DNA of 53,050 nucleotides from Limimaricola variabilis. Lineage in GTDB: Bacteria > Pseudomonadota > Alphaproteobacteria > Rhodobacterales > Rhodobacteraceae. Within the stretch, counting starts at the first letter, position 1. Each line of letters starts with the position of its first letter. The DNA is taken from assembly GCF_014195545.1 (NCBI RefSeq), contig NZ_JACIBX010000018.1, positions 1 to 53,050 on the forward strand. The letters run 5' to 3'. The notes under the pieces were generated by a model. The model made no database searches. It was not told where the DNA came from and worked only from the letters and a program-made list of their open reading frames with translations. Made by a program: the position numbers and the translations under genes. Positions 1,495-53,050 of the stretch are shown here, piece after piece.

Positions 1495-2297
1495 CAAATA
1501 TCCTCGAGAAACTCACGTATCGCGGCGGTCACCTCCGAAGGGACGGTCATGTGCGGGGTATGTCCGGTCGCATCCAACACCTTCAGGGTCGCGCCGGGCA
1601 CGTTCTCGCGCATCCAGTCGGCGACCTGCATCGGCACCAGCGCGTCGTTGCTGCAGTGGATGATCAGCGCCGGCCGGGCGGCCTGCTCGAATTCCGACCG
1701 GCGATCGGCAAAGAAGGTGACCCGCCCGAAATGCTGGGCGATGGCGGGATCGGTGCGGCAAAAGCTCTGCGTCAGCTCTTCCGTAGCCGGCTCGCCGGCC
1801 GGCTGGCCCGCGATGGTCGGCGCCAGCTGGGCCGACCAGCCGAGATGGTTCTCGTCGAGAAAGCTTATCAGCTCGCCCAGATCCGCGGCGGAGAACCCGC
1901 CGTGGTAGCCATGCGCCTGATCCTCCAGGAAGGAGGGGGTGGGGGAGACGAACACGAGCCGCGACACCCGCTCGGGCGCTTGGTTGGCGGCAAGGAGCGC
2001 GATCGTCGCGCCGATCGAATGGCCGACGATCACAGCATCCCGGAGATCGAGCTCCTTCAGGATCGAAAGCAGGTCCTCGGCATGTGCCTCGAGATCGGCA
2101 TAGCGCCTCATGTCATAGGCCGAGAGGTCCGAGCGGCCCATTCCGGTCAGGTCGTAGGTCACGACCCGCATCTCCGCCTCGAACGACGGAGCGACCTGGC
2201 GCCACATCGACTGATCGCAGCCGAACCCATGAACGAAGACGATGGGCCGTCCCTGGGGCTGGCCGGAAACGACGACTTGGTTGCGCTCGACGATCAT
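1494..2297 (-). CDS. RsbQ-like alpha/beta hydrolase
   Basis: A 267-residue alpha/beta hydrolase closely resembling RsbQ of Bacillus, which processes an unknown small hydrophobic ligand and activates the PAS phosphatase RsbP. The oxyanion/N-terminal motif HGFGCDQSMW is RsbQ-like. The triad is Ser94 (GHSIG), Asp218 (SNDAL) and His246 (GHTPH), within two residues of the B. subtilis RsbQ positions as I recall them. The same fold is used by the plant receptors D14 and KAI2. A longer open frame continues upstream, but the ATG at 2297 places the first strand where the family has it. There is no signal peptide, so it is cytosolic. It is the first gene of a two-gene unit with the PAS kinase. Family assignment is firm; a signalling role is inferred from the partner gene. 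Confidence 0.9.
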   Translation of the reverse strand: MIVERNQVVVSGQPQGRPIVFVHGFGCDQSMWRQVAPSFEAEMRVVTYDLTGMGRSDLSAYDMRRYADLEAHAEDLLSILKELDLRDAVIVGHSIGATIALLAANQAPERVSRLVFVSPTPSFLEDQAHGYHGGFSAADLGELISFLDENHLGWSAQLAPTIAGQPAGEPATEELTQSFCRTDPAIAQHFGRVTFFADRRSEFEQAARPALIIHCSNDALVPMQVADWMRENVPGATLKVLDATGHTPHMTVPSEVTAAIREFLEDI

Positions 2298-2519
2298 GCC
2301 GGTCCCTTTCCGCGGTATCGGTTCTTCGGCTCTCCTTCGTGCGTACCGCATGAGGTGGGATTGCGCCACTGGACGAATGAGAAGCGGCCTATCCCGAATG
2401 TCGCAACGACCTGTTTTCAACCGGAGATGCCAAGGGTGGCCGGTTCGATGGGCTTGGGTTGTCGGGAGCGTTCGACCGGCGCCGGTGGGCCGACAGGCGC
2501 GTCGCTCTAGGTGAATGAC

Positions 2520-3005
2520 ATGGACCTGACGAATCTTCTGGGGGATGCCTCCTCCGACCTCACGGCCCTGCAGGTCGGCCTGCGGGCGATACTGGTGTTC
2601 CTTTTCGCGGTCGCGCTTTTCCGGCTGCTGCCGCGCAAGTCGCTGGCCGATACCACGGTCATTGATCTGGTGCTGACCCTGCTCATCGGTTCGAGCCTGA
2701 GCCGGGCCCTGACCGGCAACGCGGCGATCGGTCCGACCTTCGTGGCCTGCATCGTGCTGGCCGCGCTCTGGATCGGCATGGGCATGCTGGCGATGAGGAG
2801 CGATTGGGCGTCGCGGCTGCTCAAGGGTCGGCCGCTCGAGATCATCCGTGACGGCAAGGTGGACGAAGCAGCCCTGCGCCGCGCGCATATGGGCAGGCGC
2901 GATCTCGAACAGAAGATCCGCGGGCAAGGATATCGACGGGTGGAGGACGTGCCGCTGGCCTATATCGAGCGCAACGGCTCGGTCTCCGTGGTGTCGAGGG
3001 AGTAA
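2520..3005 (+). CDS. DUF421 (YetF-like) membrane protein
   Basis: A 161-residue membrane protein with about three N-terminal transmembrane helices followed by a small soluble domain (GRPLEIIRDGKVDEAALRRA), the typical DUF421/YetF arrangement. Its function is unknown; relatives are found in the inner membrane. An in-frame GTG lies at 2511, but AGGTGA sits just upstream of the ATG at 2520, which I prefer. It is divergent from the RsbQ-like gene across about 220 bases and stands alone on its strand. Confidence 0.85.
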   Translation: MDLTNLLGDASSDLTALQVGLRAILVFLFAVALFRLLPRKSLADTTVIDLVLTLLIGSSLSRALTGNAAIGPTFVACIVLAALWIGMGMLAMRSDWASRLLKGRPLEIIRDGKVDEAALRRAHMGRRDLEQKIRGQGYRRVEDVPLAYIERNGSVSVVSRE

Positions 3006-3535
3006 CGCGGTACTGAGGGCCAGCCGATAGTCAGACTTCCGAATTTCGAGACCGCAGTTCGGCCTGCACTCAGAAACATGACCGAAGGATCGGTCGGACT
3101 CAGCAGCATCTGTCGTCGGGCCATCCCAATTCATCCGTTGATTGTAGGGCGGAAGACAATCCTACCTGCGGGACGAATAAGTGCAGCGCAGGCTCAGGCT
3201 TGTTTTTTCTGTTTTGACCAAAATTAAGTTCGGGCGCAGGAATTGTGCAGTTTCATTCTCGGAGCGAGGGCAGCCGGCACGTTTCTAAATCGAATGCCCC
3301 AGCGCGCAAATGGGCGCGTTTCTACCGAAAATGAGTCTGCTGACAAAACAGGTGACCTGACCTGTTCGACCCCACGAACCGGCCAGAGCAGACGGCCGCG
3401 TCCGCTCCGCGAGCGTGCGCCGATAGGGAAAGGATTGCGCGCTGCGGTTGGCTGCGCCGGCAGGCAGGGAGGAGCCTGCCGCGCGGGTCCGGCAGAGGCG
3501 AGACGACATTCACGAGATCTACGGGAGGAGATCTG
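3006..3535. other. 530-base intergenic region upstream of dddT
   Basis: I see no credible gene here; overlapping frames lack family resemblance. The middle (about 3195-3260) is more AT-rich than its surroundings and holds a TTGACC-like hexamer near 3216, a plausible promoter region for the BCCT transporter. A good ribosome binding site (GGGAGGAGA) lies just before the ATG at 3536. Confidence 0.4.
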
Positions 3536-5206
3536 ATGCCCATGAAACCACCACTGACCGAGCTGCCGATCCGGGTCGCGGACTCCGGCTTCTACCGCGG
3601 CTTTGCCAAGGACGTGGCGGTCACCGCAAAGGTGATCGTCGGTGCCCTCATTTTGTGGGCCATCGCCTTTCCCGAGCATGCCGCCGCCATTCTCGGGGCG
3701 TTCAACGCCTTCATCCTCGCCAGCTTCAACTACTGGTACGTCTACGTGACGGCCTTCTTCTTCCTGCTTTGCGTCGGACTGGCACTGCTGCCGGCATCCG
3801 GACGCCTGAAGCTCGGGCGCGAGGGCGATCGGCCGGAATTCTCCAACTTCTCGTGGTTCTCGATGATGTTCGGGGCTGGCATCGGGGTCGGCATGCTGAC
3901 CTTTGCCACCGCCGAGCCGATGTATCACTTCGCCAAGAACCCCAGCACGATCATGGGGCTCACCGAGGGCAGCACCGCCGGCAACGTGCGCGAGGCCTAT
4001 GTCTGGTCCTTTACCCATTGGGGCATTGCCGCCTGGTCGGCCTATGCCATCGTCGGACTGGCGCTGGCCTATTTCTGCTATCGTCGCGGCCTGCCGCTGA
4101 CGATCCGCTCGGCGCTGACGCCGCTCTTCGGCCGGGCCATGTCCGGACCGCTCGGCCACGCCGTCGACATCTTCGCGGTGGTCGCCACGGTGCTGGGCGT
4201 GTCGCAGACGCTGGGCTTCGGCTCCGAACAGTTCGTCTCCGGACTGTGGCGGATCGGGGTTGGCGACTGGCTCTACACGGTGGCCGCGGACGGCACCAAA
4301 TCGACCTCAGCCATGGGTATCGTCGTCTCGCTCGCGGTGATCATGGGGCTGTCGACGCTGTCGGCGCTCTCGGGCGTCGGCAAGGGCATCAAGTGGCTCT
4401 CCAACTTGAACATGGTACTGAGCCTGTTCCTGCTGCTGTTCTTCGTGGCCTTGGGCTCGACCTGGTTCGGCCTGACGACGCTCTTCGTCGGCGTCTTCGA
4501 CTATCTCGCATCGATGCCCGGCAACCTCTTCGCGGTCTGGGTCGAGGACGGCACCGAGACCGGCGATGCGCTGGCGGCCTGGCAACGCGGTTGGACCATC
4601 TTCTACTGGGCCTGGTGGATCGCGTTCGCGCCTTTCGTCGGGCTGTTCCTGGCCCGTATCTCCAAGGGGCGCACGGTGCGTGAATTCGTCCTCGGCGCGA
4701 TCATCATCCCGGCCTTCATGTGCTTCGTCTGGTTCGCCATCGTCGGCGGCACGGCGATCGACCTCGAGCTGTCGGGGGTGGCCCAGGGAGCGATCGCCGA
4801 AGCAGGGCAGGCGGATCAGCTCTTCGCCATGCTGGGCGTGATCCTGAACGGCCCGCTGGCCTATCTGCTGTCGATCGTGGTGGTGGTGTTGCTGCTGACC
4901 TTCCTCGTGACCACGGCCGACAGCGCGGTGCTGATCATCAACACCATCGCCGCGGCGGGTGACGAGGGCCCGAAATCGCGCCCCCATATCGTCTTCTGGG
5001 GCACGGCGCTGGCGCTGGTGGTGGGCGGCCTGATCATGGCCGGGGGCCTCGGCGCGATCCAGATGGCGATGGTGATCGGCGCACTGCCCTTCAGCCTCGT
5101 GATGGTGCTGATGGGGCTGGCGCTGATCAAGGCGATCTGGCGGGATTCGCTGCGGATGCGTCAGGGTCTCGTCGCTTCGGAGGTCGTGCTGACCGCCGCC
5201 GAATAG
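3536..5206 (+). CDS. dddT: BCCT-family transporter, probable DMSP importer (DddT-like)
   Basis: A 556-residue betaine/carnitine/choline transporter with the twelve-helix BCCT pattern, the glycine-rich GAGIGVGMLTFATAEPMYH segment in helix 3 and the WAWWIAFAPFVGLFLARISK signature in helix 8. BCCT proteins import zwitterionic onium compounds such as glycine betaine, choline and dimethylsulfoniopropionate. The next gene downstream is DddD, and DMSP clusters of Marinomonas and Halomonas carry a BCCT transporter called DddT in this position, so DMSP uptake is the likely job. An in-frame ATG six bases downstream is an alternative start. The gene has its own hairpin after the stop, so dddD is probably transcribed separately. 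The family is certain; the substrate is inferred from context. Confidence 0.88.
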   Translation: MPMKPPLTELPIRVADSGFYRGFAKDVAVTAKVIVGALILWAIAFPEHAAAILGAFNAFILASFNYWYVYVTAFFFLLCVGLALLPASGRLKLGREGDRPEFSNFSWFSMMFGAGIGVGMLTFATAEPMYHFAKNPSTIMGLTEGSTAGNVREAYVWSFTHWGIAAWSAYAIVGLALAYFCYRRGLPLTIRSALTPLFGRAMSGPLGHAVDIFAVVATVLGVSQTLGFGSEQFVSGLWRIGVGDWLYTVAADGTKSTSAMGIVVSLAVIMGLSTLSALSGVGKGIKWLSNLNMVLSLFLLLFFVALGSTWFGLTTLFVGVFDYLASMPGNLFAVWVEDGTETGDALAAWQRGWTIFYWAWWIAFAPFVGLFLARISKGRTVREFVLGAIIIPAFMCFVWFAIVGGTAIDLELSGVAQGAIAEAGQADQLFAMLGVILNGPLAYLLSIVVVVLLLTFLVTTADSAVLIINTIAAAGDEGPKSRPHIVFWGTALALVVGGLIMAGGLGAIQMAMVIGALPFSLVMVLMGLALIKAIWRDSLRMRQGLVASEVVLTAAE

Positions 5207-5228
5207 CGCGGATTGAGAAGCTGGAACG

Positions 5229-5256
5229 GGGCCTCCCGCGCAAGCGGGGGGCCCTT
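5229..5256 (+). terminator. Hairpin after dddT
   Basis: An 11-bp stem (GGGCCTCCCGC / GCGGGGGGCCC, one G-T pair) with a GCAA loop starts 22 bases after the dddT stop. Only a weak T-rich tail follows. It likely separates dddT from dddD transcription. Confidence 0.6.
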
Positions 5257-5324
5257 CCGTTTGCGTGAGATGGCGCCTGCCGCGGCATGCGGAAAGTGAG
5301 CGCCGGTGCACCCTTGGCATGTCG

Positions 5325-5356
5325 ATAAATTTTCTGAGGCCTCAGAGCGAATTTAT
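5325..5356. promoter_or_regulatory. Large palindrome upstream of dddD, candidate LysR operator
   Basis: A perfect 14-bp palindrome TCTGAGGCCTCAGA (5333-5346) lies between AT-rich arms ATAAATT (5325-5331) and AATTTAT (5350-5356). It is centred about 165 bases before the dddD start, in an AT-rich patch. The T-N11-A class of LysR sites and the two nearby LysR genes make this the best candidate for the DMSP-responsive operator. The function is inferred. Confidence 0.5.
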
Positions 5357-5503
5357 TTCCTTTGTTCGAATTCGGCTCATGGCGGATACCGATGCCAGAG
5401 AGGTTTTCCGAATTCGACGACACCCGACGCGGCCGCAACGCGGCCCGCGAAGGAGGAATTGCGGATTGTCTCATGGATCAGAATTCCTCGGCGGGAGGTC
5501 GAA

Positions 5504-8017
5504 ATGGAAGCCACCAACAAGTTGCCCCTGAACGGTGTCAGGGTCGTCGATTTCGGGCAGCAGATCGCCGGACCGGCGGTCGCGATGATCCTCGCCGATC
5601 TCGGCGCCACGGTCGTGCATGTCGATCCGATCGACGGGCCGCTGTGGGATCACCCGGCCAATGCCGTGCTCAACCGCAACAAGCTCTGCCTGCGGCTCGA
5701 CCTTCGGCAGGCGGAAGGCCTCGCACAGGCGCATGCGCTGATCGCCCGCGCCGACATCGTGATCGAAAGCGACCGCCCCGGCGCAATGAAGGCGGCCGGC
5801 ATCGATTTCGCCGCGCTGCGCGCCGCGCGCCCCGAGCTGATCACCTTGTCGGTGCCGGGCTTTGCCAGCAACGACACGCTGCGGCGCGAATGGAAGGCCA
5901 CCGAGGCGGTGATCGCCGCCACGGCCGGTGCCTTCACCGACATGGGCTTCAACCGCGTGCTGATGGGTCTCAACCCGAGCTTCTCGCCGCTGCCGCTGGG
6001 CTCGGCCTATGCCTCGACCTTGGCCGCCGGTTCGGTGGCGCTGGCGCTGCAGGCGCGCGAGCGCACCGGGCGCGGTGACAGCATCGAGGTACCGGTCGTC
6101 GCGGCGCTGATGGAGGGGCTGTCCTACAACTCCTACGTCATCGACGGGCTGCCCGAGCGCTACAAGACCATGCGCGAGACCGAGATCGAGCGCCGCCGCG
6201 CCGCGGGCATCCCGATGGATCTGAGCTACGAGGATCTGCAGGAGTATCTCGACCCGTTCTACCGCACCTATCTGTGCGCCGATGGTCGCTACTTCTACTG
6301 CGTCTGCCCCTCGCACCGCAACCATGCCAAGCGCGCGCTGGAAGCGATGGGTCTCTACGAGGAGCTGCTGGCGGAGGGCCTGCCCGAGGTCGAGGATCTG
6401 CACGCGCCGGTCAGCGAGTGGAAGGGCGAGACCTCGATCGGGGTCTATCCGCTGCCGAAGAAGTGGGCCGACATCATCTCGGCCAAGATGAAGCGCGTCT
6501 TCCTCACCAAGACCTCGGAGGAATGGGGCCGGATCTTTGGCGAGGGCAAGATCCCCGGCGCGCCGCACCGCACCACCCAGGAATGGGTGAACATGGAGCA
6601 TACCAACACCGCCAAGCTAATCGTCGAGGTCGAGGATCCGCAGTACGGGCTGATGAAGCAGCCCGGCCCGGTGGTCTGGATGGAGGATTGCGCGCATCTG
6701 ATGGTGACTCCGCGCCCGCGCCGCGAGGTCGGCTTCGACGAGGCGCTGGCCGAGCTGGCCGCGGTGGAGGCAGCGGAGACGATCACCCGTCCGACCGGTG
6801 ATGCGATCGCCCCCGAGGGCTCGGGCGGCTGGCTCGACGGGGTGCGGGTGCTCGACCTCACCAACGTCATCGCCGGCCCGCATTCGACCGCCTTCCTCGC
6901 CCGTTTCGGCGCCGAGGTAATCAAGCTCGACCCGGTGAAGCCGCTCTATGATCCTCTGATCGGCACGCTGTTCACCTTCCAGACCGGCATGGGCAAACGC
7001 AGCGCGCTGGCCGACATGACCACGCCGGAAGGGCGCGAAATCTTCAACCGCTTGGTGCGCTCGGTCGATGTCGTGGTGATCAACGCCGCCGAGCGACAGC
7101 TCGCCGGGCTGGGCCTCGATCACGCGGCGCTGCAGGCGCTGCACCCCGGCGTGCTGTTCTGCCGGCTCGATTGCCTCGGCGGCCCCCTGCCGGGACCCAA
7201 GAGCAACTACATCGGCTATGACGACATCATCCAGGCCCATAGCGGTATCATGAGCCGCTTCGGCGGGGTCGACACGCCCGAGGAGCACGCCCATCTCGGC
7301 ACGCTCGATGTGAACTGCGGCTTTGCCGCCGGGCTCAGCGTGGCGGTGGCGCTCTACCGCAAGCAGCGGACCGGCGCCGTGTCGCGGTCGCGGACCTCGC
7401 TCTCGGCGGTCACTAACCTCGCGCAGATCCCCTTCGCCTTCGACTACGAGGGGCGCGCGCCCTTCGACGAGCCCTCGGGCCGCGGCGTGCTCGGCAATGG
7501 CGTGATGTCGCGCTTCTACGAGACTGCGGAGGGCTGGCTTTTCCTCGACTCCCATTTCGACGAGGTGCCGCTGCTCGACCAGGTGCCCGGTCTCGAAGGC
7601 ATCGCCGGCACAAACGATATCGGCGCCTTCCTGTCCGAGGCTTTCCGCACGGCGCCTGCCGCCGACTGGGCCGAACGCCTGCGCGCGGCCGACATCGCGG
7701 CCGCCGAGCCGATGTCGATCGAGAAGCTGCGTGAGATGCATGCCCGCGATGCCGACGATCGGGTCGGGACGGATCTCGGCAGCTTTGCCTTCACGATCCA
7801 CCGCGATCACCCGAGCGGGCATACCGTCACCCAGATCGACCACTACGCGATCCGGCCTGAGAATTCGCGGATCCGCGCGATCTCGCTCCCCGAGCGCTGG
7901 GGACATTCGACCCGCGAAGTACTCGGCAGCATCGGCTACGAGGAGCCCGAGATCGCCCGGTTGATCGAGACCAACGTGGCGGGCCTCGGCTGGAGCCGGG
8001 AGTTCCTGCCGAGCTGA
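5504..8017 (+). CDS. dddD: DMSP CoA-transferase/lyase DddD
   Basis: An 837-residue fusion of two class III (CaiB/BaiF) CoA-transferase domains, about residues 1-420 and 435-837. DddD transfers CoA to dimethylsulfoniopropionate and cleaves it, giving dimethyl sulfide and a 3-hydroxypropionate unit. The N-terminus (NGVRVVDFGQQIAGPAVAM) and the second-domain start (DGVRVLDLTNVIAGPHSTAF) closely match known DddD. With the ATG at 5504 the aspartate of the GTLDV motif is residue 602, the number reported for the catalytic Asp of the Marinomonas enzyme. The equivalent place in the first domain (LPLGSAYAS) has no Asp, so only the second half should carry the acyl intermediate. The open frame extends 198 bases upstream, but GGGAGG eight bases before this ATG and the family N-terminus fix the start. 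Ordinary CaiB proteins have one such domain, so the tandem form is diagnostic. Confidence 0.95.
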   Translation: MEATNKLPLNGVRVVDFGQQIAGPAVAMILADLGATVVHVDPIDGPLWDHPANAVLNRNKLCLRLDLRQAEGLAQAHALIARADIVIESDRPGAMKAAGIDFAALRAARPELITLSVPGFASNDTLRREWKATEAVIAATAGAFTDMGFNRVLMGLNPSFSPLPLGSAYASTLAAGSVALALQARERTGRGDSIEVPVVAALMEGLSYNSYVIDGLPERYKTMRETEIERRRAAGIPMDLSYEDLQEYLDPFYRTYLCADGRYFYCVCPSHRNHAKRALEAMGLYEELLAEGLPEVEDLHAPVSEWKGETSIGVYPLPKKWADIISAKMKRVFLTKTSEEWGRIFGEGKIPGAPHRTTQEWVNMEHTNTAKLIVEVEDPQYGLMKQPGPVVWMEDCAHLMVTPRPRREVGFDEALAELAAVEAAETITRPTGDAIAPEGSGGWLDGVRVLDLTNVIAGPHSTAFLARFGAEVIKLDPVKPLYDPLIGTLFTFQTGMGKRSALADMTTPEGREIFNRLVRSVDVVVINAAERQLAGLGLDHAALQALHPGVLFCRLDCLGGPLPGPKSNYIGYDDIIQAHSGIMSRFGGVDTPEEHAHLGTLDVNCGFAAGLSVAVALYRKQRTGAVSRSRTSLSAVTNLAQIPFAFDYEGRAPFDEPSGRGVLGNGVMSRFYETAEGWLFLDSHFDEVPLLDQVPGLEGIAGTNDIGAFLSEAFRTAPAADWAERLRAADIAAAEPMSIEKLREMHARDADDRVGTDLGSFAFTIHRDHPSGHTVTQIDHYAIRPENSRIRAISLPERWGHSTREVLGSIGYEEPEIARLIETNVAGLGWSREFLPS

Positions 8018-8049
8018 GCCTGCCCGAGGGTTTCATCCGCGACTGCGGC

Positions 8050-8078
8050 GGCCCGGACCGGTCAAAGGTCCGGGCCTT
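8050..8078 (+). terminator. Hairpin after dddD
   Basis: A perfect 10-bp stem GGCCCGGACC / GGTCCGGGCC with a seven-base loop, beginning 33 bases after the dddD stop and followed by only two T residues. Confidence 0.6.
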
Positions 8079-8168
8079 GCCATCTGCCGGGGGCGGCGGT
8101 TGCGGGTTGCGCTCGCAGCGCGCTTGGCCGAGCGTCTGGGTGGGGACGAGGGGAGGGGTGTCGAATTC

Positions 8169-9065
8169 ATGGCACGCAAGAAGAACACGCCGCCACTGAA
8201 CTGGCTGCGCTCCTTCGAGGCGGCCGCGCGTCTCATGAGCTTCACGCGGGCGGCGGCGGAGCTCAACATGACGCAGGCCGCGATCAGCCAGCAGATCAAG
8301 GGACTCGAAGCGCATCTCGGCGCCAGCCTGTTCAACCGGCTGCCGCGCAGTCTTGAGCTGACCGAGACCGGCAAGGCGTATCTCCCCGCCGTGCACGAGG
8401 CGATGGAGCGGCTCGCCGCCGCCACCAACGAGATCTTCGGGGAGGGACGCGGACGGTTGCTCACGGTCCGGGTCAACCTGGTGTTCTTCACCCGATGGCT
8501 CGCGCCGCGGCTGGCGCGGTTCCGCGCCCGGCACCCAGATATTGGCCTGCGCTTCAACAGCAACATCTGGCTGACCGAGCACGAGAAGGTCGCGGCCCAG
8601 CTCGACATCCGTTACGGCAAGGGCAACTGGCCGGGTCTCGACGCCGATCGGCTGACCTGGGACTCGTTGATGCCGGTCTGCAGCCCGGAACTGGCCCGGG
8701 GCGTCGCGGCGCAGAGCATGGACGAGGCGCTGACCGCCAACACTCTTTTGCATGTCATCGGATACGAGGAAGGCTGGGGCTACTGGCTCCGGCGTGCCGG
8801 GCTCACCCATCTCGACGCCTCGCACGGGATGCAGTTCGACACGCTGATCACCGCGCTCGAAATGGCCGAACGCGGTCACGGGATCGCGCTGGGCCGGACC
8901 TCGCTGGTCGCAGGCGCCCTGGCCGAAGGCGGGCTCGTGGCACCCTTCGATGTCGAGGCGCCGACCTCCGAGGCGTTCTACGTGGTCAGCGCCCGCGGCC
9001 AGTATCAGCCGCCGCAGGCGCGGGCCTTCCGTGACTGGCTGGTCGAGGAGGCCGCCGCCGGCTGA
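8169..9065 (+). CDS. LysR-family regulator, GcvA-like, next to dddD
   Basis: A 298-residue LysR-type regulator. The N-terminal winged helix (LRSFEAAARLMSFTRAAAEL, then MTQAAISQQIKGLEAHLG) is GcvA-like, and an effector-binding domain follows from about residue 95. The start at 8169 gives the usual MARKKN-PPLNWLRSFEAA N-terminus; the frame runs 69 bases further upstream without a family match. It lies 150 bases after dddD on the same strand and converges on the GMC dehydrogenase. LysR regulators of DMSP clusters (DddR) activate dddD in response to DMSP or 3-hydroxypropionate, and this gene probably has that role. The ligand cannot be read from the sequence. Confidence 0.85.
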   Translation: MARKKNTPPLNWLRSFEAAARLMSFTRAAAELNMTQAAISQQIKGLEAHLGASLFNRLPRSLELTETGKAYLPAVHEAMERLAAATNEIFGEGRGRLLTVRVNLVFFTRWLAPRLARFRARHPDIGLRFNSNIWLTEHEKVAAQLDIRYGKGNWPGLDADRLTWDSLMPVCSPELARGVAAQSMDEALTANTLLHVIGYEEGWGYWLRRAGLTHLDASHGMQFDTLITALEMAERGHGIALGRTSLVAGALAEGGLVAPFDVEAPTSEAFYVVSARGQYQPPQARAFRDWLVEEAAAG

Positions 9066-9092
9066 AGAACATGCCCTGCGGCGGCCGGGCCT

Positions 9093-10754
9093 TCAGGCGT
9101 CTTCGAGGATCCAGCGCGCCGCCTTTTCGGCGATCATCATCGTGGGCGCGCTGGTGTTGCCGCTGGTGATCTCGGGCATGACGCTGGCATCCACGACCCG
9201 CAGCGCGTCTACGCCCCGCACCCTGAGCCGCGAGTCGACCACCGCCATCGGATCGTCGGCGCGGCCCATCTTTGCGGTGCCGACCGGGTGGAAGATGGTG
9301 TTGGCGATGTCGCCGGCGAGGCGGGCCAGCTCCGCGTCGGTCTGGTATTGCGGGCCGGGCTTCCACTCCTCGGGCGCGTATTTCGCCATCGCGGGCTGCG
9401 ACAGGATTTCACGCACCTGCCGCAGGCTGGCGGCCGCGACCCGACGGTCCTCCTCGGTGGCGAGGTAGTTCGGTGCGATCAGCGGCGCGTCCTCGCAGCG
9501 GGCTGAGCGGATCCGCACCGCGCCCCGGCTGGTGGGGTTCAGGTTGCACACGCTCGCGGTGATCGCCGGAAAGCCGTGCAGCGGCTCGCCGAAGGCGTCG
9601 AGACTGAGCGGTTGGACGTGGTATTCGAGGTTGGGATGCGCCCGCTCCGGCTCGGAGCGGGTGAAGGCGCCGAGCTGGCTGGGCGACATGCTCATCGGCC
9701 CGGAGCGCCTGAGCGCGTATTCGAGGCCGATCCGCGCCTTGCCGAACAGGCTGCCGGCCAGCGTGTTCAGCGTCTTCGCGCCCTTCACCTTGTAGACGGC
9801 GCGGATCTGCAGGTGGTCCTGCAGGTTCTCGCCGACGCCGGGCAGGTCTTGCCTCACCTCGATCCCGTGCGCTTTCGACTGCGCGGCCGGGCCGATGCCG
9901 GACAGCTGCAGGATCTGCGGCGAGCCGATCGCCCCGGCCGAGAGGATGACCTCGCGACTGGCCTGCACCGTCACCGTTTCGCCGCCGCGCCGCACCACTG
10001 CGCCGCTGCAGCGCGGCCGGCCGTCGGCGCCGGTCTCGAAGACGAGCCGTTCGACCTGCGCCTCGGTCCAGATCACGAGGTTGGCCCGTCCCTTCGCGGG
10101 GCGCAGGAAGGCCTTGGCCGCGTTCCAGCGCCAGCCGTTCTTCTGGTTCACGTCGAAATAGCCGACGCCGCCATTGTCGCCGGTGTTGAAATCGTCGCTC
10201 CGCGGTATGCCTGCCTGCGTGGCGGCGGTGGCGAAATCCTCGAGCACGTCCCAGCGCAGACGCTGCTTCTCCACCCGCCATTCGCCGCCATGGCCGTGCA
10301 GGTCGGAGAAGCGACCGTTATGCCCGGTCGCCGGATCGGCCCCGCCGTCGCGCCGGTAGTGATCCTCATGCGCCATGAAGTCCGGCAGCGCCTTGTCCCA
10401 GCTCCAGTCGTCATCGCCGGTAAGCCGGGCCCAGTTATCGTAGTCCCGCGCCTGGCCGCGCATGTAGATCATGCCGTTGATCGAGGAGCAGCCGCCCAGC
10501 CCCTTGCCGCGCGGATAGCGTAAGGAGCGCCCGTTCAGCCCGGCCTCGGGCGCGGTCTGGTAGAGCCAATCGGTGCGCGGGTTGCCGATGCAGTAGAGAT
10601 AGCCGGCCGGGATATGGATCCAGGGATGGTTGTCGCGCTTGCCCGCCTCGAGCAGCAGCACGCGCCGCCCAGGGTCACGGCTGAGCCGGTTGGCGAGCAG
10701 ACAACCGGCCGAGCCAGCGCCGACGACGATGTGGTCGAAGCAGTCACGCGTCAT
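9093..10754 (-). CDS. GMC-family FAD alcohol dehydrogenase, DddA-like
   Basis: A 553-residue glucose-methanol-choline oxidoreductase of the choline dehydrogenase type. The FAD-binding GAGSAGCLLANRL motif is at residues 12-24. The GMC signatures (GKGLGGCSSINGMIYMRG and GAIGSPQILQLSGIGP) and the C-terminal active-site region (HPVGTAKMG, then NTSAPTMMIAEKAA) are all present. In Halomonas DMSP clusters a GMC enzyme, DddA, oxidises 3-hydroxypropionate to malonate semialdehyde, which would be the step after DddD. Choline or another primary alcohol is the main alternative, and no betaine aldehyde dehydrogenase or dddC-type aldehyde dehydrogenase lies in the window. It is convergent with the first LysR gene (27-base gap) and divergent from the second. 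Confidence 0.88.
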   Translation of the reverse strand: MTRDCFDHIVVGAGSAGCLLANRLSRDPGRRVLLLEAGKRDNHPWIHIPAGYLYCIGNPRTDWLYQTAPEAGLNGRSLRYPRGKGLGGCSSINGMIYMRGQARDYDNWARLTGDDDWSWDKALPDFMAHEDHYRRDGGADPATGHNGRFSDLHGHGGEWRVEKQRLRWDVLEDFATAATQAGIPRSDDFNTGDNGGVGYFDVNQKNGWRWNAAKAFLRPAKGRANLVIWTEAQVERLVFETGADGRPRCSGAVVRRGGETVTVQASREVILSAGAIGSPQILQLSGIGPAAQSKAHGIEVRQDLPGVGENLQDHLQIRAVYKVKGAKTLNTLAGSLFGKARIGLEYALRRSGPMSMSPSQLGAFTRSEPERAHPNLEYHVQPLSLDAFGEPLHGFPAITASVCNLNPTSRGAVRIRSARCEDAPLIAPNYLATEEDRRVAAASLRQVREILSQPAMAKYAPEEWKPGPQYQTDAELARLAGDIANTIFHPVGTAKMGRADDPMAVVDSRLRVRGVDALRVVDASVMPEITSGNTSAPTMMIAEKAARWILEDA

Positions 10755-10881
10755 TCGATTTCCCTCTCCTCGCCGAGGGCCGTCCGCTGCTCACTCCCAG
10801 CGCAGGCCGCCCATTCGGTTGCTGCATCAAGCGATGCGCCGCTCGGCCGGCAAAATCCAATGACTAATAGACCCGATCATT

Positions 10882-10896
10882 ATAAGCCGGATTTAT
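10882..10896. promoter_or_regulatory. ATAA-N7-TTAT inverted repeat at the LysR start
   Basis: ATAA (10882-10885) and TTAT (10893-10896) flank seven bases and overlap the ATG of the divergent LysR gene. This fits the LysR-type T-N11-A symmetry and an autoregulatory site that could also cover the GMC gene promoter. Inferred from sequence symmetry only. Confidence 0.4.
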
Positions 10897-11827
10897 GAGG
10901 CCACTCGCCGATCTGCGGACCTTGCGGTCCTTCGTCACCGTGGCGCGCGAGGGCAACGTCTCCCGCGCGGCCGAGCGGCTGCACCTGACCCAGCCGGCCG
11001 TGAGCCTGCAGCTCAAGCGGCTCGCCGAGGAGGCCGGTTTGGAGCTGTTCCGCCGCACCGCCAAGGGCCTCGACCTGACGCCAGATGGCGAAATGCTGCT
11101 GAAGAAGGCCGAGCAGGTGCTTAAAGCGGTCGATGAACTAGGCCAGACAGCGCGACGGATGACCGGCAGCGTGCGCGGCACGCTGCGGATCGGGACCATC
11201 ATCGATCCCGACTTCATCCGGCTCGGAAGCTTTCTCGCGGGGCTGCTCGAAGCGGCGCCGGAGCTACGGACTGAGCTGGTTCAGGGTATGAGCGGCGACG
11301 TGCCGGTGCGGCTCGACCGGGGCGAGATCGATGCCGGCTTCATGCTCGAGGATCCCGGGGCAGTGCAGGGGACGGCCTTTGGCGGATCGGCGCTCGCCAC
11401 GGACCTGCTGTTCCGACCACTTACCAGCTTTGCCTACCGCATCCTGGCACCCGCTGGCTGGCAGCGCCGCACCGCCGGGCTGGATTGGACCGGGCTGGCG
11501 CGGCTGCCCTGGATCGGGACGCCGCCCCGTTCGATCCATTCGCGGCTGCTCGATCGTCGGTTCGAAGAGGCCGGTGTCGTGCAGAACCGGGTCGCGCTCG
11601 TGGATCAGGAACCCTCGATGCTGGCCATGGTCCGCTCCGGCGTGGGGCTGAGCCTCTGCCGGGAGGCGATCGCCCTGCACGAGAACCAGGTCCGGGGGAT
11701 GACCATCGTCGGCGAACATCGCCTGCCGGCCACGCTCGGTTTCTCGGTGGCAACGTCGCGCATGGAAGAGCCCAGCCTGGCCCTCGCCCTGCAGACGCTG
11801 GAACGGGTCTGGGCGTCGGAATTCTGA
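10895..11827 (+). CDS. LysR-family transcriptional regulator
   Basis: A 310-residue LysR-type protein with a clear helix-turn-helix (FVTVAREGNVSRAAERLHLTQPAVSLQLKRL, about residues 13-43, as two adjoining segments) and a substrate-binding-protein-like effector domain. It is divergent from the GMC dehydrogenase, with about 140 bases between start codons, the classical arrangement for LysR regulators and their targets. It is followed at 148 bases by the Rossmann/SAF oxidoreductase on the same strand. Likely target is the GMC gene, the SAF gene or itself; the effector is unknown. Confidence 0.85.
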   Translation: MRPLADLRTLRSFVTVAREGNVSRAAERLHLTQPAVSLQLKRLAEEAGLELFRRTAKGLDLTPDGEMLLKKAEQVLKAVDELGQTARRMTGSVRGTLRIGTIIDPDFIRLGSFLAGLLEAAPELRTELVQGMSGDVPVRLDRGEIDAGFMLEDPGAVQGTAFGGSALATDLLFRPLTSFAYRILAPAGWQRRTAGLDWTGLARLPWIGTPPRSIHSRLLDRRFEEAGVVQNRVALVDQEPSMLAMVRSGVGLSLCREAIALHENQVRGMTIVGEHRLPATLGFSVATSRMEEPSLALALQTLERVWASEF

Positions 11828-11975
11828 CGGGCGGAGCGCCGTTTTTATACTCGGACGCACGCCGTGTTGGACTGGGCATACACAGGGGCAGGCCCTCCTC
11901 TGGCCCCATGACGGGATGCATGGACCCCGCCCAGGTTTTCGCCTTCACTGCGCACAGGGAGAAGGAGAGGCATCC

Positions 11976-13280
11976 ATGAATCTGGCGAAGCTCTGCGCGG
12001 CGCGCGCGGCCGAGGGGCGGCCCGTCACCGCCGGCCTGATCGGCGCGGGCAAGTTCGGCTCGATGTTCCTGGCGCAGGTGCCGCATGTCGAAGGGCTGGA
12101 GGTGGCGGCGATCGCCGATCTCGACCCCGAGCGCTCCCGCGCCGCCTGCCGCGAGGTCGGCTGGGACGAGGCGCGGATCGCGGCCACGCACTTCGTCACC
12201 GACGGTGCGGAGCTGGCGGCGATGGACGGGGTCGAGGTGGTGATCGAGGCCACTGGCCATCCGCGCGCGGGCATCCGCCACGCGCAGGCGGCGATTGCGG
12301 CGGGGCGGCACGTGGTGATGGTCAATGTCGAGGCCGACGTACTGGCCGGCCCCGTGCTGGCGCGCCGTGCCGCCGAAGCGGGGGTGGTCTACTCCATGGC
12401 CTTCGGCGACCAGCCGGCGCTGGTCTGCGAGATGGTCGATTGGGCCAGCTCGAACGGGTTCCGGGTCGTCGCGGCGGGCAAGGGGACGAAATACCTGCCG
12501 AGCTATCATGAGGTGACGCCCGACGCGGTCTGGGAGCACTACGGTCTGACGGCCGAGGAGGCGAAGAAGGCGGGGATGAACCCGCAGATGTTCAACTCCT
12601 TTCTCGACGGCACCAAGAGCGCGATCGAGGCGGCGGCGATCGCCAATGCCACCGGGCTTTCGGTGCCCGAAGAGGGGCTGGCCTTCCCGCCTTGCGGCGC
12701 GGATGATCTCGCCCGCGTGCTGCGCCCGCGCGAGATCGGCGGGCAGCTGGAGAGGTCTGGCATGGTCGAGGTGGTTTCAAGCCTCGAACGCGATGGGCGG
12801 CCGGTGTTCCGGGATCTGCGCTGGGGCGTCTACGTGGTGATCGAGGCGCAGAGCGACTACGCCGCCGCCTGCTTCGCGCAATACGGCCTGCCGACCGACG
12901 CGACCGGGCGCTATGCCGCGATGTACCGGCCGTTTCACATGATCGGCCTGGAACTTGCGACCTCGGTGCTGTCGGCGGCGCTCAGGAGCGAGGCCACCGG
13001 AGCGCCGCTGGGCTTTCACGCGACGGTCGCCGCCATCGCCAAGCAGGATCTCGGCCCCGGCGACCGGCTCGACGGTGAAGGTGGCTACACCGTCTGGGGT
13101 CGGGTCATGCCCGCCACCCGGGCGGCGCACGACGAGGTACTGCCGATCGGGCTGGCGCAGGGGGTCACGCTGCGCCGCGCGGTGGCCAAGGGCACGGCCC
13201 TGCGCTTCGCGGATGTCGAGATCGGCGAGGACGAGGCAGTACGGCTTTACCGCGACTGCCTCGCCGTGGCGCAGGGCTAG
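11976..13280 (+). CDS. Rossmann-fold NAD(P) oxidoreductase with C-terminal SAF domain
   Basis: A 434-residue protein with an N-terminal homoserine-dehydrogenase-like NAD(P)-binding domain (GLIGAGKFGSMF at about residues 18-29, then DLDPERSRAA) and a C-terminal SAF domain from about residue 350 (AKQDLGPGDRLDGEGGYTVWG). Such fusions occur in sugar-acid and apiose-type degradation pathways and are often misannotated as FlgA-like; the substrate here is not recognised. A strong ribosome binding site (GAAGGAGAGG) precedes the ATG at 11976; the frame is open for 60 bases upstream. It follows a LysR gene and converges on the amine operon, so it could serve either the DMSP island or a separate carbon source. 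Confidence 0.75.
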   Translation: MNLAKLCAARAAEGRPVTAGLIGAGKFGSMFLAQVPHVEGLEVAAIADLDPERSRAACREVGWDEARIAATHFVTDGAELAAMDGVEVVIEATGHPRAGIRHAQAAIAAGRHVVMVNVEADVLAGPVLARRAAEAGVVYSMAFGDQPALVCEMVDWASSNGFRVVAAGKGTKYLPSYHEVTPDAVWEHYGLTAEEAKKAGMNPQMFNSFLDGTKSAIEAAAIANATGLSVPEEGLAFPPCGADDLARVLRPREIGGQLERSGMVEVVSSLERDGRPVFRDLRWGVYVVIEAQSDYAAACFAQYGLPTDATGRYAAMYRPFHMIGLELATSVLSAALRSEATGAPLGFHATVAAIAKQDLGPGDRLDGEGGYTVWGRVMPATRAAHDEVLPIGLAQGVTLRRAVAKGTALRFADVEIGEDEAVRLYRDCLAVAQG

Positions 13281-13343
13281 AGCCAAGTCTCGGGCGGGTC
13301 ATGAGGCAATGTCGCCCATGCCCGCCGACCGGCCGCGGAGGGA

Positions 13344-14648
13344 TCAGACCCCGAGCCGGTCGCGCAGCGCGTACCAGGTCATCGCCAGCGTCAGCAGCGG
13401 CGCGCGGAAGCGGCCGCCGCCCGGAAACGGGGGGACGGGCAGGGTGGCGAAGGTGTCGAAACGGTCGGCTTGTCCCGCCACAGCCTCGGCCATCACCCGA
13501 CCGGCCATGCCCGACAGCGCCACGCCATGGCCGGAGAAGCCCGCGCCCGACAGGATGTTGGGCCCGATGCGCTGCAGCGACGGCAGCCGCGACATGGTGA
13601 TACCCAGCGTTCCGCCCCAGACATTGTCGATGCGCACGTCCGCAAGCTGCGGAAACAAGCTCTCCATCCGGCCGCGCAGTGCGGAGGTGATGTCGGTCGG
13701 GAAGCCGATAGAGTAGCTTTCGCGCCCGCCGAAGAGGAAACGGCGATCCTCGGTCATCCGGTAGTAATTCACCACGAAACGGGAATCGGCCACGGCGATG
13801 TCGCGGCTCAGCACTTCGCGCCAGCGCTCGCCCAAGGGCTCGGTCGCGGCGATGAAGCTGTTGATCGGCATCACTCGGGCCGCGACCTCGGGCATGATGC
13901 CGGGCAGGTAGCCATTGCCGGCGAGGATCACGTGATCGGCGGTCACCTTGGCACGTGGCGTGTGCAGCACCGCAGGGGTGCCCCGCTCGACCCGCGTCAC
14001 TTCGGTCAACTCGTGGATCGTGGCGCCCGCCTTTTCCGCCTCGCGGGCCAGCGCCCGGGCGTAGCGCAGCGGGTGAAGGTGGCCTGCGCCTTCGTCGATC
14101 AGCCCGCCGTGATAGGCCTCCGTCCTGACGATGTCGCGGATCTCGTCGCGCCCGAGCGGCCGGATCGCGTCATAGCAGTAGCGCTTCGACAGGTGCTCGG
14201 CCTCGGCCCGGTCGCCCGCCGCCTCCTTCTCGGAATAGGCGCCATGCACCACGCCGGGAAGGAACCGGGCCTCGGGCGCATGTGCGTCGCAGAAGTCGCG
14301 CAGCTGCCGCTTGGCCTCTTCGGCCAGATCCCAGAGCTGCCGCGCGGGGCCGGTGCCGAGCTTGTCCTCGAGCCAGAGCTGCCCTTTGTTGAAACCCGAT
14401 CCGACCTGGCCGCCATTGCGCCCCGAGGCGCCGAAGCCTGCGCGATGGGCGTCGAGCACGACGACGTCGAGCCCGGCCCGCGCCGCCGTCAACGCGGCCC
14501 AGAGCCCGGTGAAGCCCGCGCCGACGATGGCGAGATCGCAGCGCCGGTCGGCGTCGAGCGGATCGCGGTCGGCCGCGGGCGCTGCCGAGGCCACGTACCA
14601 GCTGCGCGGCATCTGGCCGGGGCGGTCGTTACGGTAGAGCGGGTTCAT
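13344..14648 (-). CDS. FAD-dependent oxidase, gamma-glutamylputrescine oxidase-like
   Basis: A 434-residue DAO/PuuB-family flavoprotein. The dinucleotide motif CDLAIVGAGFTGLWAALTAA lies near residue 38, followed by GFGASGRNGGQVGSGFNKGQ, typical of PuuB-like oxidases. It would oxidise the gamma-glutamylated amine made by the upstream ligase, releasing an aldehyde and hydrogen peroxide. It is the last gene of the eight-gene minus-strand operon and its ATG overlaps the preceding ligase stop by four bases (ATGA). The open frame upstream of 14648 runs inside that ligase gene. No PuuC-type aldehyde dehydrogenase follows, so the next step must be encoded elsewhere. Confidence 0.85.
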   Translation of the reverse strand: MNPLYRNDRPGQMPRSWYVASAAPAADRDPLDADRRCDLAIVGAGFTGLWAALTAARAGLDVVVLDAHRAGFGASGRNGGQVGSGFNKGQLWLEDKLGTGPARQLWDLAEEAKRQLRDFCDAHAPEARFLPGVVHGAYSEKEAAGDRAEAEHLSKRYCYDAIRPLGRDEIRDIVRTEAYHGGLIDEGAGHLHPLRYARALAREAEKAGATIHELTEVTRVERGTPAVLHTPRAKVTADHVILAGNGYLPGIMPEVAARVMPINSFIAATEPLGERWREVLSRDIAVADSRFVVNYYRMTEDRRFLFGGRESYSIGFPTDITSALRGRMESLFPQLADVRIDNVWGGTLGITMSRLPSLQRIGPNILSGAGFSGHGVALSGMAGRVMAEAVAGQADRFDTFATLPVPPFPGGGRFRAPLLTLAMTWYALRDRLGV

Positions 14649-51097: not shown

Positions 51098-51182
51098 GCC
51101 CGCGTGGTGAAATGGTAGACACACGAGACTTAAAATCTCCTGCCCTTCGGGCGTGCCGGTTCGAGTCCGGCCGCGGGCACCA
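51098..51182 (+). tRNA. tRNA-Leu (TAA)
   Basis: An 85-base class II tRNA with acceptor stem GCCCGCG / CGCGGGC, anticodon TAA in the loop CTTAAAA between GAGA and TCTC, a variable arm (CTGCCCTTCGGGCG) and encoded CCA. Its last 14 bases begin the 78-bp repeat that flanks the integrase cassette, so it is the attachment gene. Confidence 0.95.
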
Positions 51183-51246
51183 AGAATCTTCCTAAGGCAT
51201 TGATAGGCCTCGGCTTTTGATCAGATTAAGCCAAGGCGTAGTACAT
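51169..51246 (+). repeat. Left 78-bp inverted repeat (att-like)
   Basis: Perfectly matches the reverse complement of 52893-52970. It comprises the last 14 bases of tRNA-Leu, 62 bases of spacer and the first two bases of the integrase start codon. Confidence 0.97.
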
Positions 51247-52429
51247 GCCGGAGTACATTCATATCCCTCACTGCTTCCTCAAGGATGGAATCTTCTACTT
51301 TCAGCGTCGGGTGCCGACTGAACTGATTCGCCATTACACGTCTTCGAAGATCTCGTATTCGCTGCGGACGAGGTCAGCGCGAGTTGCGGCTGCGCGGGCT
51401 ATACGAGCCGCGAGCCAACTCGACGAGTACTGGTATCATCTGCGTAGTCAGGATGCGGACCTCCCAGGGAAGCACATGCGGCGACTGGGAGTGGCTGATC
51501 CCCGTCAGCGGGCTTCCGACGGCGGCAGTGTCAACATCGACTGTATAAGCCTCTCTGAGGCTGTAGTGACATACCTGCGGCTCAAGGGCAGCGGAAAGGG
51601 GATTACTTTCCGCCGGGCAGCTGAGCGGGCCTGTGGCTATGTCATCGACACCTGCGGGGACAAGCCGCTCTCTAGCTACACGAAGGCGGACGCCAACGCC
51701 TTTCGTGATGCACTGATCGCCCGCGGGATGGCTGGCAGCAGCATCACCAGGGTCTTCGGCACGGTACGGTCGATCATTAATTTCGCCGCCAATGAAGAAG
51801 GGATCGAACTGACGAACCCCTTCGGGAAGGTCTACTATGACCGATACGCTGGCGTGTCGGATCGCCAGCCTATTCCGGTCGAAGCCATCCGTGCCGTACA
51901 AGCTGAGTGCTACCGCTTGGACGACGACATGCGTTGGCTGGTGGCCTTGGTCGCGGATACGGGGATGCGACTGGCAGAGGCGGCTGGGCTGCTCTGTGAG
52001 GACATCGTACATGACAACGAGGGCAACTACATAGCACGGATCACTCCGCATCCGTGGCGCAGGCTCAAGACCGCTGGCAGCATGAGGGAAGTCCCTCTTG
52101 TCGGATCTGCTCGCTGGGCTGCTGAACGACTAATGGCCGTGCATGGAGGCTCGGGCTTCGCCTTCCCGCGCTACAACAAGACCGACACCACGAATGCCAA
52201 CGCAGCAAGTGCGGGCCTCAACAAGTGGCTGAAGGCGTACGTGCCGGCAGGGGCGACCATGCACAGCTTCCGGCATTCGATGCGCGACCGGCTACGTGCA
52301 GTGGAATGCCCGGCTGACATCGTGGATCAGATCGGTGGCTGGCAGACTAATGGAATAGGACACGGTTATGGAAAAGGGTACGCAGCACAAATAACCATTA
52401 AGTGGATGGAAAAGGCTATTTTCCTTTAA
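51245..52429 (+). CDS. Tyrosine recombinase (phage-type integrase)
   Basis: A 394-residue site-specific recombinase. The N-terminal part (FLKDGIFYFQRRVPTELIRH) is the DUF6538-type arm-binding region, followed by a SAM-like core-binding domain. The catalytic domain shows the first Arg in DTGMRLAEAAGLL, the H-x-x-R in MHSFRHSMRDRL and the Tyr nucleophile in GHGYGKGY. The start codon straddles the end of the left inverted repeat, so its promoter would lie within the repeat. It reads away from tRNA-Leu. Confidence 0.93.
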   Translation: MPEYIHIPHCFLKDGIFYFQRRVPTELIRHYTSSKISYSLRTRSARVAAARAIRAASQLDEYWYHLRSQDADLPGKHMRRLGVADPRQRASDGGSVNIDCISLSEAVVTYLRLKGSGKGITFRRAAERACGYVIDTCGDKPLSSYTKADANAFRDALIARGMAGSSITRVFGTVRSIINFAANEEGIELTNPFGKVYYDRYAGVSDRQPIPVEAIRAVQAECYRLDDDMRWLVALVADTGMRLAEAAGLLCEDIVHDNEGNYIARITPHPWRRLKTAGSMREVPLVGSARWAAERLMAVHGGSGFAFPRYNKTDTTNANAASAGLNKWLKAYVPAGATMHSFRHSMRDRLRAVECPADIVDQIGGWQTNGIGHGYGKGYAAQITIKWMEKAIFL

Positions 52430-52536
52430 TTGGTGCTTGAAAATTTTCGGAAGTTCTCCCAAGAATTGACCTTATGTGATATAAGTCTCTCGACGGACCG
52501 ATTCGGCCGTCAGGTATTTAGTAAGTGGGAACGAAA

Positions 52537-52755
52537 ATGAAAAAATTCATGCTTGCAGTGAGCATTCTGGCCTTTTCTTCCTCAACAGCTTTGGCTGATA
52601 AACCAAACGATAAAGGCGCGGGTGGTCAAGCTGTAAAGGCTCTTAACCAGGATCTGAAAGATACCGACACAAATCTTGGGCAGCTTAAGAAAGATCTCGG
52701 GATTACTGGAATTGGCAGCGAGGTCAGCGCCATAAACCAAGACTCCAACAACTAA
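52537..52755 (+). CDS. Small secreted protein of unknown function
   Basis: A 72-residue protein with a signal peptide (MKKFMLAVSILAFSSSTALA) and a mature 52-residue part that is polar and predicted helical (KALNQDLKDTDTNLGQLKKD), with no cysteines. I do not recognise the family. ATG at 52537 has GGGA upstream; the in-frame GTG at 52525 is less likely. The gene is AT-rich compared with the chromosome and is the only cargo of the cassette, followed by a strong terminator. Confidence 0.7.
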   Translation: MKKFMLAVSILAFSSSTALADKPNDKGAGGQAVKALNQDLKDTDTNLGQLKKDLGITGIGSEVSAINQDSNN

Positions 52756-52793
52756 CGCAAGATTGGCTCCAATTTCGATCGGAAAGAGATCAA

Positions 52794-52834
52794 GGTTCAG
52801 ACACGGGCCTATGCCGTGTCTGAACCCCCTTATT
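52794..52834 (+). terminator. Terminator after the small secreted-protein gene
   Basis: A perfect 13-bp stem GGTTCAGACACGG / CCGTGTCTGAACC with a seven-base loop, followed by CCCTTATT. It could also block transcription entering from the right repeat. Confidence 0.85.
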
Positions 52835-52892
52835 GCCCCTGACCTTTAAAAAATCGATATCCATTTTTTTCTGAAGGCAGTGAGAGCAAAAA

Positions 52893-52970
52893 ATGTACTA
52901 CGCCTTGGCTTAATCTGATCAAAAGCCGAGGCCTATCAATGCCTTAGGAAGATTCTTGGTGCCCGCGGCC
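52893..52970 (-). repeat. Right 78-bp inverted repeat (att-like)
   Basis: A perfect inverted copy of 51169-51246. On its inner side the integrase frame is missing; an A/T run and the terminator follow instead. On its outer side (52971-53050) the sequence is unrelated to the tRNA-Leu body, and I recognise no gene in those 80 bases. Confidence 0.97.
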
Positions 52971-53050
52971 TGTTCCAAGCGGTTTGCCGCCCTGGTTCAG
53001 GTCCTGTTGCAGGCACTTCTTTCGGCATTCGCCCCAGCAAAACAAGCCCT

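Follow-up and report, generated by a model that had tools for sequence, protein, structure and literature searches.

Inverted attachment-site repeats around a tRNA-Leu integrase of Limimaricola variabilis delimit one end of an apparently undescribed type of bacterial mobile DNA

Ordinary islands at tRNA genes carry two direct att sites. PICMI phage satellites and tycheposons combine an integrase with primase or other replication genes and defence cargo, and we know of no inverted attP in either. Nor, to our knowledge, do chloroplast DNA or the herpes simplex virus genome possess integrase sites or integrate. In these two genomes, as in the elements described here, unique regions lie between identical inverted repeats and isomers arise by inversion (PMC3147054). 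The same paper describes Flp recombination at the inverted sites of the yeast 2-micron plasmid, which gives two isomers and may start double rolling-circle replication, a mode that strongly raises recombination between repeats (PMC3147054). Integrase-made inversions in archaea (PMC5495485) concern chromosomes.

The locus analysed here lies at the end of a stretch of 53,050 nt from Limimaricola variabilis (the window), which is the entire contig C18. Like the 2-micron plasmid of Saccharomyces cerevisiae with its Flp/FRT system, as characterized in PMC3147054, the locus and its relatives have their own tyrosine recombinase, two site-bearing inverted repeats that divide the replicon in two, and two isomers. 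Unlike it, they are bacterial and integrate at tRNA genes, and their attP-like sites, composed of arm sites and a tRNA-derived core, are unequal; moreover, no free circle was seen, and the recombinase matches phage-type integrase families. With tRNA islands and integrative mobilizable elements they share an attL at the tRNA 3' end, an int gene next to attL and an attR in direct repeat, while a third, inverted, whole attP and long inverted arms set them apart from ordinary islands. Compared by description, PICMI satellites (PMC10803314) and tycheposons are likewise small marine integrative elements.

The integration target in the window is a tRNA-Leu(TAA) gene at 51098-51182 on the forward strand (ARAGORN). 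A repeat search finds a left arm at 51169-51246 and a right arm at 52893-52970, 78 nt each, 100% complementary and 1646 nt apart. Chance is excluded, because the runner-up inverted pair within the same 5 kb measures only 31 nt at 71%. On the forward strand, the left arm reads as attL, consisting of a core O and a P' arm; the core GGCCGCGGGCACCAA (51169-51183) comprises the last 14 nt of the tRNA plus 1 nt, and the arm ends at 51246, just inside the integrase ORF that begins at 51245. The internal site occupies 52893-53050 on the reverse strand and reads as an inverted attP, with its P' arm at 52893-52955, core O at 52956-52970 and the start of a P/X arm at 52971-53050, where the contig stops 80 nt beyond the right arm and cuts the P/X arm off. 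Within the latter, at 53002-53046 (reverse strand), lie P-arm motifs common to many relatives, one GTGCCTGYARCRGGA-like (53002-53016) and one CTTGTTTTGCTG (53035-53046). Outside the right copy there is no tRNA. In all these points, namely the exact complementarity, the 14 tRNA bases inside the repeat, its extension to the integrase start and the lack of a tRNA beyond the right copy, the sequence-only reading of this DNA was accurate.

The ORF at 51245-52429 (forward strand) encodes a tyrosine integrase of 394 aa with a DUF6538 N-terminus (PF20172) and a Phage_integrase domain (PF00589, E 6.5e-11, over the curated cut-off); these are its only Pfam matches above cut-off in the profile search, and phrog_1 integrase matches at 1.9e-32. 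No paper on DUF6538 turned up in the literature searched. R242, K275, H340-x-x-R343, W366 and Y375 are each at least 97% conserved among 45 aligned sequences, with the query entered twice; we take them to be the catalytic residues R, K, HxxR, H/W and Y of tyrosine recombinases. By domain match and catalytic residues, the protein fits a tyrosine recombinase of the phage integrase type, and a sequence search of solved structures returned chance-level matches only. Tandem arm-type-like repeats, GTAGTACA and GGAGTACA, a pattern chosen by eye, lie 12 nt apart at 51238-51257 (forward strand). The second of the two falls within the int coding region and has no counterpart at the internal site. Further downstream, a 72-aa ORF with a signal-peptide-like start (by eye; 52537-52755, forward strand) is a candidate accessory gene of the integrase module without a significant family match (best E 0.22). 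In the integrase module of the tRNA-Thr element (L009, 6452-7492), we noticed a 346-aa Ala/Glu-rich, coiled-coil-like ORF that has no Pfam family and a look-alike in L077.

The right arm can be understood from other contigs of the same genome. The terminal 95 nt of C18 (52956-53050) recur, exactly reverse-complemented, as the opening 95 nt of contig C5, which departs from the repeat right after the 15-nt core and continues with an asparaginase-like gene (by eye). Analogously, contig C23 finishes with 95 nt identical to C1:620664-620758, and the recurrence of precisely this overlap length looks like the word length of an assembler. C5 and C23 therefore hold attR (P-O-B'), which makes the internal right arm P-O-P', a complete attP in backward orientation. 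This bears out the earlier proposal that the repeats are att-like and that the right copy is an attP-type junction, as the C5 overlap and the core with both P and P' arms indicate. Since the 15-nt core is common to the tRNA-Leu end and the C5 start, the window element has the attL at a tRNA 3' end and the direct attR of a tRNA island, and so do 11 further loci. It departs from such islands in that its att sites are not only two direct ones, a third, inverted, whole attP being present. An ordinary island with a nested second island was ruled out for the window because the internal site has the P and P' arms of the same element and a core that matches attL. Neither the X end of C18 nor that of C1 is carried on by any other contig of the window genome.

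In the relative Limimaricola litoreus (L055), an element occupies the corresponding site, with tRNA-Leu(TAA) on one side and the asparaginase-like gene (by eye) on the other, and its middle is present whole: X arms of 765 bp (96.9% identical) surround a replication-type gene together with transposase-, sulfotransferase- and glycosyltransferase-like genes (by eye). The window genome holds a relative of this replication-type gene (69% identity) on the 3.8-kb contig C29, the only contig that came up, by protein similarity, when the absent middle parts of this genome's own elements were sought. As C29 has no sequence or end in common with C18, C5, C1 or C23, that it is the C module (the replication and cargo part) of one of the two elements of this genome is something we infer. 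The second of these elements lies on C1, where an integrase 88% identical to that of the window at the protein level adjoins tRNA-Thr(TGT). Its perfect inverted arms of 86 nt contain 17 nt of tRNA-Thr and none of tRNA-Leu, and C1 stops 423 nt beyond the right arm. A natural contrast within the same genome is the seemingly ordinary tRNA-Ser(GCT) island at the start of contig C3 (L133, reversed, 4375-8397), which has a distant tyrosine integrase (28%) and 21-nt direct att-like repeats; inverted arms were looked for in this island and none were found.

Integrase matches occur in 44 of 394 genomes of the family (E<=1e-30) and in 10 of 385 genomes of the class (E<=1e-50), the window genome being counted in both, and the elements are present in several alphaproteobacterial families. 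The non-redundant set comprises 62 near-full-length integrases, including the two of the window genome. Searching other genomes for the segment with inverted ends, as had been suggested, was rewarding: the arm is found for 47 of the 55 integrases that reach 40% identity and are followed by 150 nt or more of sequence. It is missing in L033, L035, L038, L056, L070, L127, L130 and L141, the last of which, counted as armless, does have X arms and an inverted core. Integrases below 40% identity lack the arm (0/3), and two of four more with less than 150 nt downstream have it. Arm statistics were computed on 53 elements, all picked for having the arm, which became 51 after two near-duplicates were dropped; shorter fetches of loci already included (L025, L026, L027, L029, L032, L036) and a degenerate copy in G045 (L097) were kept out, and of the class-scan loci only those fetched anew are included. 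An intact tRNA ends inside the left arm in 41 of the 51 elements, overlapping it by 14 nt (20 elements), 16 nt (12), 17 nt (8) or 21 nt (1), and 14 tRNA species serve as targets. Among the ten without overlap, int is nevertheless preceded by a tRNA in L040, L064, L067 and L080. At attL, at the internal attP and, where visible, at attR, the core agrees with the element's own target tRNA, although close relatives use different tRNAs (e.g. L096 vs L098, L009 vs L011).

Contigs that span whole elements display the order attL, int, inverted attP, X, replication/cargo module, inverted X and attR. The search for attR covered 35 loci that extend 200 nt or more past the internal site. A direct core whose P flank is identical to that of the inverted site at 58-60 of 60 positions lies downstream in 11 of them (L113, L096, L098, L110, L055, L068, L077, L136, L139, L141, L142), L136 and L139 having further core copies without a matching P flank. 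L065 has only a direct near-core with an unlike flank (22/60). In the remaining 23, many of which end early, no direct core was found; L140 is among them and is nonetheless spanned by its own inverted arms. Of the 22 loci that continue for over 2 kb past the internal site, attR was found in 12 and not seen in ten (L054, L060, L065, L074, L099, L109, L132, L137, L138, L143). Three of these, L099, L137 and L138, are in single-contig genomes and have int and the inverted site, with no attR even in wider flanks.

Between attL and attR of spanned elements thus lies a complete-looking inverted attP, and X arms bracket the C module. In 12 spanned elements the X arms measure 197-3183 bp and are 95-100% identical, with boundaries that shift from element to element. 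The whole structure is present in the single-contig genomes G045, G604 and G770, in the four-contig genome G200 and on the megaplasmid of Ruegeria sp. TM1040 (L113), where one BRO-family protein accession is annotated in both X arms. In L110 (reversed, 2055-13549), the X arms of 3183 bp are 100% identical and take in an entire helicase-like gene along with the ends common to two RTX-like genes, an expansion of the inverted repeat. L139 (3565-10214) has a pair of related integrases at a single tRNA-Thr, where inverted and direct arms are nested or in tandem, apparently as two elements abreast. Draft assemblies often break at the internal site, and in one set 10 of 22 armed loci end within 130 nt of it. 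No free circular form was recognised in plasmid, phage and IMG/VR collections; the one IMG/VR contig matched, L132, has the same inverted arms.

The orientation of int is fixed, and that of the C module is not. None of the 51 elements has int reversed relative to its target. The direction was read from a tRNA upstream on the int strand in 45 (ARAGORN), from a tRNA 3' fragment upstream in L071 and L110 (by eye), and from the P/X flank at the right arm in L106, L132, L136 and L140. C modules, in contrast, occur both ways. L096 and L098 reside in one single-contig genome, at tRNA-Ser GGA and TGA, respectively; their int sides run in the same order for 2.2 kb (90.0%), but the 5.1-kb C module (89.7%) is inverted between them, so that the primase-helicase gene runs against int in L096 and with it in L098. 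The helicase-like gene runs with int in L068 and L113 and against it in L060, L109, L063, L031 and L132 (a short fragment in the last), and both arms of L110 contain the helicase. The L055 family follows the int direction in L055 and opposite in L054 and L077, with an N-terminal piece in the int direction in L054 as well. Both C-module orientations are therefore seen in each of three replication-type gene families, and C-module inversion in nature is well supported. The isomers were observed across elements, not inside one culture.

Arm sequences evolve in concert, judging from their comparison within and between elements. In 43 of 51 elements, the P' arms (54 nt compared) resemble each other more than they resemble those of the closest other element (two ties, six opposite), with median identities of 1.00 and 0.80. 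Similarly, X arms are 95.3% identical within L096 and 98.3% within L098, compared with 88-90% between the two. P-side motifs adjoining the core recur in most loci with a visible P side, and the arm usually ends between two tandem repeats (e.g. GTAGACCATGTCGGAGACCA). The int-proximal site has more arm-type repeats than the internal site in 39 of 51 elements, an equal number in 11 and fewer in one; these counts are descriptive only, because the pattern was chosen by eye after looking at the data. Such asymmetry would account for the position of int next to the tRNA after integration.

Primase or primase-helicase genes occur in L142, L096 and L098. The L142 protein is a primase of 731 aa (AEP-TOTE 6.2e-16, DUF5906 7.7e-24, phrog DNA primase 5.7e-53), and the L096 protein of 1077 aa matches phrog DNA primase (2.7e-24) and replication-origin-binding (1.2e-15). 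A helicase-like family of 633-655 aa, with weak named matches under cut-off (AAA_19, Herpes_ori_bp), is present in L068, L113, L060, L109, L110, L063 and L031. The L055 protein (497 aa) matches phrog_4756, a family of unknown function, at 1.2e-36 and RNA polymerase weakly (9.8e-4). By eye, this family (L055, L054, L077, L151) has PolA- or T7-RNA-polymerase-like motifs, and it may be a new replication polymerase or primase. No obvious replication gene was found in the C modules of L136, L139 and L141. Cargo varies between elements: the TM1040 element carries type I restriction-modification, in L140 (7910-15797) a DNA cytosine methyltransferase accompanies the defence genes MzaB-E, and other C modules hold TPR proteins and, by eye, RTX-like repeat proteins and transporters.

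These data lend good support to a replicon with the anatomy B-O-P'-int-(inverted: P'-O-P/X)-C module-(X/P-O)-B'. We regard it as probable, with some reservation, that the window is the left, integrase-bearing end of such a tRNA-integrated mobile replicon, whose two-attP circle is flipped by Int and reintegrates through the int-proximal site. Int would excise the element by recombining attL with attR. In the resulting circle, two opposite-facing attP sites would divide the integrase module from the C module, and recombination of both attP by Int, probably the agent of inversion, would turn one module relative to the other. Reintegration would use the int-proximal attP, the sole site with both P' arm-type repeats, the second being inside int; int would thereby come to lie beside the tRNA and the C module in either direction. 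More speculatively, flipping during replication could convert the theta mode to the double rolling-circle mode, in the manner of Flp on the yeast 2-micron plasmid. Such flipping may amplify copy number, the outcome being bursts or concatemers, and replication-linked recombination would also hold the arms identical.

The earlier reading had accepted correctly that recombination between inverted sites implies inversion, and had assigned it to a free-standing 1.65-kb integrase cassette flipping in place. The perfect inverted arms with attachment cores around int would suit such a cassette, yet it is very improbable: the arm-type sites are unequal in most elements, and C18 passes both arms unbroken. 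A uniform orientation, named at the time as what would refute the idea, is what the 51 integrated elements display. The segment is rather the integrase end of a larger element, of which X-cargo-X' and attR are absent from the contig. Nor does int keep the same upstream DNA, as had been supposed, since beyond 78 nt it differs, being tRNA in the integrated state, and in the circle it would be the P/X arm. A chimera of assembly, amplification or library preparation deserves hardly any credence. Inverted repeats are typical of assembly and amplification chimeras and both arms are close to a contig end, but what comes after the right arm is conserved attP sequence and not a mirror image of the tRNA; the same structure in dozens of independent genomes, several of them single-contig, refutes this explanation.

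We consider it unlikely that the second site is a passive duplicate attP and that RecA recombination between the long X arms yields both inversion and arm identity without Int. The length and identity of the X arms would be enough for homologous recombination and their boundaries shift, as this explanation would have it; however, the short P' arms outside X are also kept alike, and the core, the P motifs and the inner arm end near the int start codon recur in divergent elements, which a passive duplicate would not maintain. Quite improbable, too, is an expression switch, in which a flip of the C module or of int moves genes to or from a promoter in the P/X or tRNA region and thereby causes phase variation, be it in the cargo or in int. 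C modules in both orientations are compatible with a switch, as is int downstream of the tRNA in the chromosome and, as it would be in the circle, downstream of P/X. Against it, the same X arm borders both ends of the C module, hence little would change near the ends; moreover, the cargo differs by element and flipped int was not observed in any of the 51 elements.

By the arrangement of attL, inverted attP and attR in 11 loci and L140, the replicon would consist of two parts as in the 2-micron plasmid, provided that the predicted sites function as such. Two isomers occur as well, in three gene families and in L096 vs L098. The elements would work like the 2-micron family but do not belong to it, as they are integrated and lack a Flp-related recombinase. 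No published description of the attL, inverted attP, attR architecture was found in a search that lay largely outside the subscription literature, and within the same scope, papers on double rolling-circle replication in bacteria, Flp-like bacterial plasmids and Rhodobacteraceae islands with inverted repeats described no such element; a Moraxella plasmid paper proved unrelated. The repeats sit at one end of what is apparently an undescribed type of bacterial mobile DNA. The frequent breakage in draft assemblies may be why this architecture was overlooked, and an integrase between inverted tRNA ends near a contig end can be taken as the sign of a missing module in draft genomes.

For recombinase biology, the elements offer a natural pair of unequal inverted attP sites. 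Only tentatively do we extend the probable replicon reading to a widespread group of bacterial integrative replicons, in which a tRNA integrase would double as Flp, module inversion and double rolling-circle amplification, driven by the two unequal inverted attP sites of the excised circle, would alternate with integration as a bacterial counterpart to 2-micron copy-number control, and defence genes would be spread. The elements, such as that of the marine Ruegeria sp. TM1040, raise the question whether bacteria evolved recombinase-driven amplification of the 2-micron type, and whether they rely on such amplification to disseminate type I restriction, Mza defence or other cargo.
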